Virus record (IMG/VR): IMGVR_UViG_3300042402_002564
Coordinates: 1 to 64,000 of that record
Strand: one strand, 5' to 3'
DNA: 64,000 nt
Source of the DNA: a virus
Below are positions 42,537 to 44,032 of the stretch, piece by piece. Every line of letters begins with the position of its first letter. Within the stretch, counting starts at the first letter, position 1. The notes below the pieces were generated by a model that was not told the DNA's origin, ran no database searches, and saw only the letters and a program-made list of their open reading frames with translations. Position numbers and translations under genes: made by a program.

Positions 42537-42567
42537 AGACCTCTTGACTAAATACGTCAAGAGGTCT
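42537..42567 (+). terminator. 12-bp perfect hairpin before the riboswitch promoter
   Basis: AGACCTCTTGAC (42537-42548) and GTCAAGAGGTCT (42556-42567) form a perfect 12-bp stem with a 7-base loop (TAAATAC). It ends the upstream gene cluster 10 bases after the SGNH stop. There is no T-run behind it, so it may work as a processing or blocking element more than as a classic terminator. The -35 hexamer of the next promoter lies in its left arm and loop. Confidence 0.7.
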
Positions 42568-42572
42568 ATGAT
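42544..42572 (+). promoter_or_regulatory. Sigma-70-type promoter (TTGACT-17-TATGAT)
   Basis: TTGACT (42544-42549) and TATGAT (42567-42572) have the ideal 17-base spacing. Transcription would start near 42580, the first paired base of the glutamine aptamer. The promoter is embedded in the hairpin at 42537-42567. Confidence 0.65.
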
Positions 42573-42574
42573 GA

Positions 42575-42706
42575 CCTTACGTTCATCAGAGGAAACTCTG
42601 ACGCAAGTAGGACGGCGGAACGGTACGTTCATTCGCTATTCGCAAATAGCGAACGCAAACCGCCCGAAGGAACGGGACCTAAAAATCTCATTTCTTTGGA
42701 GGAAAT
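42575..42706 (+). ncRNA. Glutamine riboswitch (glnA/Downstream-peptide class)
   Basis: The sequence carries the conserved blocks of this aptamer in order. CGTTCATC (42580) pairs with GAACG (42670-42674) as P1. TCAGAG-GAAA-CTCTGA forms the next hairpin, followed by GACGCAAGTAGG. A long third helix has GGCGG/CCGCC closing an arm with a perfect 9-bp hairpin (TTCGCTATT/AATAGCGAA). It ends in CCCGAAGGAACG. This class binds L-glutamine and is known upstream of short peptide genes in picocyanobacteria and their phages. The SD GGAG of the first gene lies in the loop of ATTTC/GAAAT (42690-42706), a likely expression platform. A protein frame across this region is not credible. Confidence 0.82.
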
Positions 42707-42710
42707 TCTA

Positions 42711-42848
42711 ATGTCTAAAGTAGTATATCGCGGCGTTGAATATAATACCGAAAAGCGTATTCAATACCAACAGCAGATGATGCAGCAACCCCAACAGTAT
42801 AACGAAACCTATCGTGGTGTTAAGTTTACTAAGGAGGGTCATAAGTGA
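42711..42848 (+). CDS. Riboswitch-controlled YRG-motif peptide (45 aa)
   Basis: The 45-residue peptide lies directly behind the glutamine riboswitch with a strong GGAGG site seven bases from the ATG. It holds two copies of a YRGV[EK][YF] motif (VVYRGVEYNTE and ETYRGVKFTKE), separated by a Gln-rich linker (QYQQQMMQQPQQY). The motif matches the small cyanobacterial DUF4278-type proteins. Peptides of this kind are the usual partner of the Downstream-peptide riboswitch, where they are thought to act in nitrogen control. The function in a phage is not known. It overlaps the next gene by one base. Confidence 0.8.
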   Translation: MSKVVYRGVEYNTEKRIQYQQQMMQQPQQYNETYRGVKFTKEGHK

Positions 42849-42946
42849 TGAAAAAACTTAATGTACTTCAACTCATTAAAGAGCAGAAGCAAAAAGAGCA
42901 ACGTCGTCATGAAGCATCACTTGCCCAACTAGTTGGCAATAGATAA
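42848..42946 (+). CDS. Small helical peptide (32 aa)
   Basis: The ATG shares its A with the preceding stop (TGATG). The 32-residue product is one Lys/Gln/Arg-rich helix (LNVLQLIKEQKQKEQRRHEA). Its stop overlaps the next start (TAATG). It has no known family, but tight coupling and the riboswitch make expression credible. Confidence 0.6.
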   Translation: MKKLNVLQLIKEQKQKEQRRHEASLAQLVGNR

Positions 42947-43101
42947 TGAAAGATTACCATTATCACTATGATGATATGGATAAGGACAGTAGAAGTCCAG
43001 CTTGTTATCTTTTAACATATCGTGGGTGTCGATACTGGTCATGTTATCGTATTCATCTAGTGGAATGGTTTGAAAAAATGTTTAAATCTGAGGGGTCTTG
43101 A
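42946..43101 (+). CDS. Small aromatic YRG-motif protein (51 aa)
   Basis: The 51-residue protein starts MKDYHYHYDDMDKDS and contains LLTYRGCRYWSCYRIH. This YRG-x-x-Y element is similar to the first peptide of the operon and to DUF4278 proteins. Three Cys and several Tyr/Trp suggest metal or protein binding. The stop codon lies inside the loop of the terminator hairpin. It is the last gene of the riboswitch operon. Confidence 0.65.
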   Translation: MKDYHYHYDDMDKDSRSPACYLLTYRGCRYWSCYRIHLVEWFEKMFKSEGS

Positions 43102-43118
43102 CACCCCTCTTTTTTTTA
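43090..43118 (+). terminator. Rho-independent terminator of the riboswitch operon
   Basis: GAGGGGT (43090-43096) and ACCCCTC (43103-43109) form a 7-bp stem with a 6-base loop, followed by an eight-T run. The loop contains the stop codon of the last small gene and the -35 element of the next promoter. Confidence 0.92.
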
Positions 43119-43126
43119 ACTATAAT
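43098..43126 (+). promoter_or_regulatory. Consensus sigma-70 promoter (TTGACA-17-TATAAT)
   Basis: A perfect -35 (43098-43103) and perfect -10 (43121-43126) are separated by exactly 17 bases. The -35 overlaps the terminator loop and the last base of it pairs in the stem. It drives the small gene at 43150 and thyX, and possibly phoH and the genes after it. As a host-consensus promoter it should be used early. Confidence 0.88.
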
Positions 43127-43149: not shown

Positions 43150-43320
43150 ATGGATGTAGAAAAGGTTAAGCTAATTGTCAGAAACCTTGAGTCTCTGGTA
43201 GAATGCCTGAAGTCAGAAATTTATTCTGACACGACTCCATATCAAATGGATTACGAAGAATCTAACTTTCAAATTACAGATTACGACGAAGTATTTTATG
43301 ACGGAGACGAAGATGAATAA
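43150..43320 (+). CDS. Small acidic hypothetical protein (56 aa)
   Basis: The ATG at 43150 follows a consensus promoter by 24 bases. The 56-residue product has one helix (DVEKVKLIVRNLESLVECLK) and a strongly acidic C-terminus (DEVFYDGDEDE). An in-frame TTG at 43132 is an unlikely start. The end overlaps thyX by eight bases. As the first gene behind a perfect host promoter it may be an early host-takeover peptide; no family recognised. Confidence 0.6.
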   Translation: MDVEKVKLIVRNLESLVECLKSEIYSDTTPYQMDYEESNFQITDYDEVFYDGDEDE

Positions 43321-44032
43321 TCAGATTGATGAATTTGAGTTTATGAAACCAGAAGTAAAACTTATTAGTGTTACCCCAAATGCAGAAAAACACATGGCGT
43401 ATTGTGCCCGTGTAAGTAATCCTGCTAATCAAGAGAATGAAAAGTTCTCTGGACTGCTCAAGTATTGTATTCAACATCAGCACTGGAGTATTTTTGAACA
43501 GGCAAGTATGACTGTTGAGATTAATACTACTCGTGGACTGGCAGCACAAATTCTTCGTCACCGTTCATTTACATATCAAGAATTTTCACAACGGTATGCT
43601 GATACTAATCTCCTAAACAAGACTATTCCTCTTCCTGAACTTCGTCGTCAGGATACAAAGAACCGTCAAAATAGCATTGATGACATTCCAGATTATCTGA
43701 AACTGGTTTTACTTGAAGACATTCGTGTTTTGTTTGAACACTCTCAAAAACTCTACAATCGTCTTCTAGAGAAGGGTGTGGCAAAGGAGTGTGCAAGGTT
43801 TGTATTGCCCTTGGCGACCCCTACAAGACTCTATATGACGGGCTCTGTGCGTTCTTGGATCCACTACATTGATTTGCGTTCAGCACACGGTACACAGAAG
43901 GAACACATGGAGATTGCTGAACTAGTTCGTTGCATCTTTACGTGTCAGTTCCCTGCAGTGTCTGAAGCACTTGGATGGACTCGTGAAGGTTGTTCTGAAT
44001 GCGTGGATGCACCTTCTATTACGATCGAATAA
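43313..44032 (+). CDS. thyX: Flavin-dependent thymidylate synthase
   Basis: ThyX makes dTMP from dUMP with methylene-tetrahydrofolate and reduced FAD. The 239-residue protein has the diagnostic ThyX motif R-H-R-x-x-S-x-x-E-x-S-x-R-Y in slightly altered form (RHRSFTYQEFSQRY, about 88-101). HWSIFEQA precedes it, and SVRSWIHYIDLRSAHGTQKEH holds dUMP-binding residues. A GGAG site seven bases before 43313 supports that ATG over the one at 43298. A typical cyanophage nucleotide gene. Confidence 0.96.
   Translation: MNNQIDEFEFMKPEVKLISVTPNAEKHMAYCARVSNPANQENEKFSGLLKYCIQHQHWSIFEQASMTVEINTTRGLAAQILRHRSFTYQEFSQRYADTNLLNKTIPLPELRRQDTKNRQNSIDDIPDYLKLVLLEDIRVLFEHSQKLYNRLLEKGVAKECARFVLPLATPTRLYMTGSVRSWIHYIDLRSAHGTQKEHMEIAELVRCIFTCQFPAVSEALGWTREGCSECVDAPSITIE

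Follow-up and report, generated by a model that had tools for sequence, protein, structure and literature searches.

Interlocked two-copy glutamine-I riboswitches in cyanophages, most of which house a gene

Glutamine riboswitches have been described in cyanophages (PMC9964418), and their association with DUF4278/YRG genes is known from cyanobacteria (PMC6316151). A leader of this type precedes three very small genes in the DNA studied here. The window, i.e. the whole stretch of 64,000 nucleotides analysed, corresponds to the first 64 kb of a cyanophage record of 246,502 bp, and the nearest named relatives across this stretch are mostly Synechococcus phages. The new elements are two interlocked aptamer half-repeats with one shared P3 and, in most relatives, a gene inside the sensor. 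No earlier description of the interlocked fold or of the nested gene was found in the searchable literature.

A glutamine-I riboswitch operon in a cyanophage

An earlier note on this DNA had proposed a complete glutamine aptamer that begins at the predicted start of its own promoter and is followed by three overlapping small genes and a strong terminator. The order of promoter, glutamine-I riboswitch, three coupled genes and terminator was confirmed. The sequence contains a sigma-70-type promoter (TTGACT-17-TATGAT, positions 42544-42572, plus strand), whose expected start adjoins helix P1 of the riboswitch; sigma-70-like promoters also lie 5' of 136 related leaders. The three genes (42711-42848, 42848-42946 and 42946-43101, all on the plus strand) are joined by TGATG and TAATG, and the operon ends with an intrinsic terminator consisting of a 7-bp G+C-rich hairpin and T8 (43090-43117, plus strand). 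A thyX-like gene is located downstream (43298-44032); S-PM2, P-SSM2 and other phages likewise have such a gene close to their equivalent locus.

Three further promoter-related features were noted. A perfect sigma-70 consensus (TTGACA-17-TATAAT, 43098-43126) starts within the terminator hairpin and would drive the next gene (phrog_878) and thyX. In five relatives (L169, L194, L245, L249, L250), the T4-type late promoter TATAAATA replaces the sigma-70 form 5' of the leader; the timing of the riboswitch operon may therefore vary among phages. Just 5' of P1, an inverted repeat with varying letters (GGTCTATAATAGACC, GGTAGCGAAAGTTACC) occurs at 42564-42577 and in many relatives, where it often overlaps the -10 box.

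Scanning the leader with the Rfam covariance models, as the earlier note had suggested, yielded a match to RF01739 (glutamine-I, glnA RNA) at 42578-42678 on the plus strand. Its score of 35.5 bits exceeds the cut-off of 35, with E = 5.7e-4 over the entire window and 9.8e-6 over the local stretch. This was the sole Rfam match within the window, and the complete 246,502-bp record contains one RF01739 match. RF01704 (glutamine-II, Downstream-peptide) scored 20.9 bits versus a cut-off of 33. The glutamine-II class was therefore rejected and the riboswitch type is glutamine-I. The phage leader shares the CGUUCA, CGCA and GGAACGG elements with glutamine-II, which in marine picocyanobacteria likewise lies ahead of DUF4278 small proteins, but lacks the PK/P2 arrangement of that class. 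The leader is a glutamine riboswitch, but not a simple aptamer; a second, permuted copy had been overlooked. The insert of 52 nt that appears when the leader is aligned to the Rfam model is part of this second copy. The pattern describing the joint between copies 1 and 2 occurs once in the window, versus zero occurrences expected from 100 shuffles.

Two three-way junctions share one helix P3

In named cyanophages, the leaders likewise contain two consecutive half-repeats of the form CGTTCA-hairpin-ACGSAA..GNAACG. The joint pattern, which is blind to the content of the second loop, matched in at least 120 IMG/VR contigs. In total, 262 distinct leaders including that of the window were parsed, and all counts are lower bounds. 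Since the leaders were found via conserved strings, the conservation of these strings was left out of the evidence. Related phage leaders are not independent events, and the counts given below ignore kinship.

The double aptamer of the window, as deduced from the RF01739 match and from the nested fold indicated by covariation, spans positions 42580-42675; all its elements lie on the plus strand. The 5' strand of P1 (CGTTC, copy 1, 42580-42584) pairs with 42670-42674. It is followed by the P2 hairpin of junction A (TCAGAG-GAAA-CTCTGA, 42586-42601), which covaries in relatives, and by J2/3 (CGCAAGTA, 42602-42609), whose C42604 is predicted to pair with G42675 as the ligand-contact long-range pair. 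The 5' strand of the shared P3 (GGACGG, 42610-42615) pairs with 42660-42665, with one A.C mismatch. The inner helix P1' (GAACG-GTA-CGTTC, 42618-42630), identified by covariation, joins the 3' strand of copy 1 to the 5' strand of copy 2. The P2' hairpin of junction B (42632-42653) is empty in the window and is the site of an additional gene, termed ORF0, in 210 of the 262 leaders. J2'/3 (CGCAAA, 42654-42659), in which C42656 is predicted to pair with G42623, leads into the 3' strand of P3 (CCGCCC, 42660-42665). The fold is completed by GAAG and the 3' strand of P1 (GAACG, copy 2), which together occupy 42666-42674; at this site, ORF0-bearing relatives possess CTGAAGG or CTAAAGG, which provides the stop codon of ORF0. 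Junction A has the anatomy of glutamine-I, with a three-way junction, conserved J2/3 and J3/1, and a covarying ligand-contact pair.

Covariation among the related leaders demonstrates that P1 connects copy 1 with copy 2 and P1' connects copy 2 with copy 1, both junctions using one P3. For P1', GGAACG is combined with CGTTCA in at least 120 contigs and GCAACG with CGTTGA in at least 120; a search for the two mismatched combinations in IMG/VR gave zero matches for each. The outer P1 strands (CGTTC, GAACG) remain constant while P1' varies, and four apparent exceptions are P2 loops that were misparsed. P3 is formed by the segment after AAGTA of copy 1 and the segment before GAAGG/AAAGG of copy 2. 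Its two strands are of equal length in 254 of the 262 leaders and occur as AGTCG/CGACT, AATCG/CGATT, AGTCA/TGACT, AGACAACT/AGTTGACT, GGACGG/CCGCCC and GGCTAACG/CGTTGAGCT. In 22 haplotypes of equal strand length, 83% of the positions are paired as compared to 75% in shuffles, and none of 2000 shuffles reached this value. In the 8-bp form of P3, positions 3 and 6 are frequently A.C or C.A mismatches. P2' is paired at positions 1-4 in at least 99% of the distinct leaders, by several types of base pairs.

The ligand pocket of glutamine riboswitches with known structure is closed by a long-range pair (PMC6698751). The counterpart of this pair covaries between copies 1 and 2: CGC in copy 1 occurs with G after copy 2 in 201 leaders, with A in three, which look like parsing slips, and CGG occurs with C in 19. 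At junction B, the contact pair is C:G in 222 of 223 leaders. The leader thus consists of two three-way junctions placed back to back on a single P3.

This arrangement has to be compared with two ordinary glutamine aptamers lying side by side, each closing its own P1, folding independently and behaving pseudo-cooperatively. Two repeats are indeed visible in the sequence, in some phages a single copy is scored by Rfam, and 157 glutamine doublets have been counted as tandem (PMC9481103). However, C/G changes in 75 of the 262 leaders break both tandem P1 helices and spare both nested ones, and a tandem reading of the ligand-contact pair produces clashes in 19 leaders for each copy. Moreover, RNAalifold predicted the nested P1/P1' unprompted on 35 natural leaders lacking the gene, and according to folding energy the nested form was more stable than the tandem form in 37 of 37 leaders. 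The side-by-side fold was rejected on the basis of covariation and the ligand-contact pair, and we consider it extremely improbable.

A gene within the aptamer

The P2' loop comprises either 10-26 nt (52 leaders, among them that of the window) or 137-194 nt (210 leaders), and no loop of intermediate length was found. The long loops correspond to ORF0 (phrog_504/13397), which has a length of about 49-66 amino acids. Its ATG is usually located four bases past CGTT(C/G)A. In 209 of 210 cases, ORF0 is in frame with GAC-GCA of the aptamer core, and in 202 its stop codon is the TGA or TAA of the core element CTGAAGG/CTAAAGG (CUGAAGG/CUAAAGG in the RNA). The C-terminus typically reads C-x-W-D-A-N-D or a near variant; the codons for D-A and for the final D are the GACGCA and the GAC of the aptamer.

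The divergence of the ORF0 body is 0.28, 0.12 and 0.43 at codon positions 1, 2 and 3, respectively. In the last four codons, the value for the third position is 0.03, which means that synonymous sites are frozen. Correspondingly, the GAT:GAC ratio for Asp is 344:107 in the body and 7:361 in the last codons. These data show that ORF0 is a coding sequence whose frame is locked to the aptamer. Both aptamer halves were also present at all 91 ORF0 loci that were fetched by means of the protein alone: 83 contain the exact pattern, seven have the matched GCAACG/CGTTGA joint, and the last one is L253, which shares with L075 an ORF0 stop just 5' of the core.

Relatives of ORF0 were found in 320 phage records, all of which are cyanophages or marine viruses by name. 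The flanks of L026, which contains ORF0, and of L119, which does not, are 93% identical; this near-identity indicates that the ORF0 cassette is gained or lost precisely at P2'. Within the subtype having a 5-bp P3 and a G-type joint, GGAG is present in the P1' loop of 98 of 101 loaded leaders and of none of nine empty ones; the subtype with an 8-bp P3 lacks it, as does part of the GCAACG subtype. A phrog_504 match was absent from the 246,502-bp record, which is weak evidence since the same search also missed phrog_504 in all control genomes. ORF0 is predicted to form three helices (pLDDT 78), and a Foldseek comparison with viral proteins gave one match with E < 0.001, an unnamed cyanophage protein. 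Neither ORF0 nor the YRG peptides had an informative match in NCBIfam, PADLOC or the PDB.

A host origin of the interlocked form was rejected: among 84,980 species genomes scanned, there were 28 matches, most of them outside an aptamer context. The seven aptamer-like matches that were read all lie on MAG/SAG contigs with cyanophage-type genes. MAG or SAG contigs labelled as bacteria or archaea (L138, L140, L142, L150, L153, L158, L160) have cyanophage-type genes that include PhoH-, ThyX-, NrdA- and NrdB-like ones.

The downstream YRG peptides

Gene 1 encodes a 45-residue peptide (phrog_5049, DUF4278-like) with the two YRG motifs VVYRGVEY and ETYRGVKF, and gene 3 a 51-residue peptide with the single motif LTYRGCRY and relatives in 37 cyanophage records. 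The 32-residue product of gene 2 resembles phrog_545. Its module (LNVLQLIKEQ..) is found in other phages fused to YRG at either end, both orders being represented among L076, L086, L098, L009 and L013, which suggests that the three peptides of the window act together.

A YRG-type motif is present in the first ORF 3' of the leader in 204 of 207 leaders, and two motifs in 198. Given this frequency and the published associations cited above, the system is, contrary to what had been supposed, not undescribed in kind. In L256 and L294, the first ORF is HNH-endonuclease-like instead. DUF4278 was matched at an E value of 0.01 by 39 of 40 such downstream peptides. For peptide 1 of the window, the Pfam score for DUF4278 (PF14105) is 19.1 bits versus a cut-off of 25.3, and the P-SSM2 relative scores 29.0. 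DUF4278 is the sole Pfam resemblance of the window peptides, which matched nothing in NCBIfam and no other named family; the structure model of the YRG peptide is weak (pLDDT 69).

DUF4278 constitutes the N-terminal part of IF17, and has been reported to be dispensable for IF17 function (PMC6316151). IF17 (gifB, Synechocystis) is controlled by the same riboswitch class and shares the DUF4278 part; in contrast, the phage peptides match DUF4278 only. Thus, a riboswitch does precede a YRG-peptide operon in this phage as proposed, but the postulated link to glutamine synthetase inactivation is weak. A nitrogen-related role of the YRG peptides nevertheless remains plausible.

Proposed mechanism and alternative explanations

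Glutamine is reported to activate glutamine riboswitches, whose main targets in cyanobacteria are reported to be DUF4278 genes (PMC6316151, PMC6698751). By analogy, the phage leader is most likely a glutamine-ON translational switch: high glutamine would stabilise the fold and thereby allow the DUF4278-type YRG peptides encoded downstream to be translated. As both junctions retain the counterpart of the ligand-contact pair, the RNA may bind two glutamines.

ORF0 starts at the P2' stem and ends in the strand before P1, and many copies are preceded by a putative SD sequence, GGAG in the P1' loop. Because start and stop lie within the aptamer, a ribosome on ORF0 must unfold it; reading to the core stop would open P2' and P3. 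Conversely, the folded RNA would cover part of the ORF0 start codon and hide it. This geometry argues that ORF0 translation and aptamer folding are mutually exclusive. If it is used as a toggle, low glutamine would lead to synthesis of ORF0, and high glutamine to that of the YRG peptides. We consider it probable that the leader is an interlocked two-copy glutamine-I riboswitch that is ON for the YRG peptides and exclusive with ORF0. A more far-reaching version is that the aptamer houses a gene, toggles two reading frames by glutamine and has two cooperative sites with a helix in common. As the last codons and the stop of ORF0 are conserved core strands, ORF0 translation and glutamine binding would then exclude each other; we advance this version tentatively, at somewhat less than an even chance.

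It is also conceivable that glutamine binds solely to the outer junction, and that the inner junction, the shared P3 and ORF0 are tolerated decoration, the cassette having no regulatory meaning. Junction B lacks the canonical GUA of J2/3 and GAA of J3/1 and for this reason may not bind glutamine, and the cassette is absent from the window and, as L119 illustrates, can be absent within nearly unchanged flanks. However, the contact pair of junction B is almost invariant and P1' covaries; furthermore, the start and the stop of ORF0 lie inside conserved RNA, and at none of the 91 loci was ORF0 located outside the aptamer. We regard this alternative as unlikely. ORF0 could be made regardless of aptamer folding. 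If, on the other hand, it were a leader peptide, ribosome stalling rather than glutamine alone would govern the fold, in keeping with its position in the leader and with the fact that a moving ribosome has to open P3 and P1. Against this stand its length, a body that diverges like a protein gene, the predicted helices and the absence of a glutamine run, which make a leader peptide quite improbable.

Relation to known systems and expression platform

With canonical glutamine-I (RF01739), the interlocked riboswitch has in common the core CGUUCA-P2-ACGSAAGUA-P3-GAAGGAACG, the three-way junction and the DUF4278 gene downstream. It differs in that P3 leads into a second, permuted junction and not into a short hairpin, and in that P2' holds a gene in relatives. 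Tandem riboswitches, including glutamine doublets (PMC9481103), also have two aptamer copies per leader, but there the copies follow one another, whereas those of the phages interlock and share P3. Some surveyed glutamine tandems may therefore need to be re-read as the interlocked fold.

Group I and group II introns carry protein genes in peripheral loops of a structured RNA. In contrast to such intron-housed genes, the RNA considered here senses a metabolite, and its binding core is read through by the gene. S-PM2 and P-SSM2 are among the well-studied cyanophages that have this architecture. It makes testable how a lytic phage senses the nitrogen status of its host, and whether ribosome and metabolite compete for the same nucleotides.

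A conserved anti-SD helix before gene 1 found no support as expression platform, since the observed pairing was lower than in permutations. A helix directly after P1 received modest support (8.24 versus 7.53, sd 0.17). Between P1 and the SD sequence of gene 1, six leaders (L036, L096, L171, L261, L269, L366) contain an extra conserved hairpin (ACGGATC..GAGAAGGTT).
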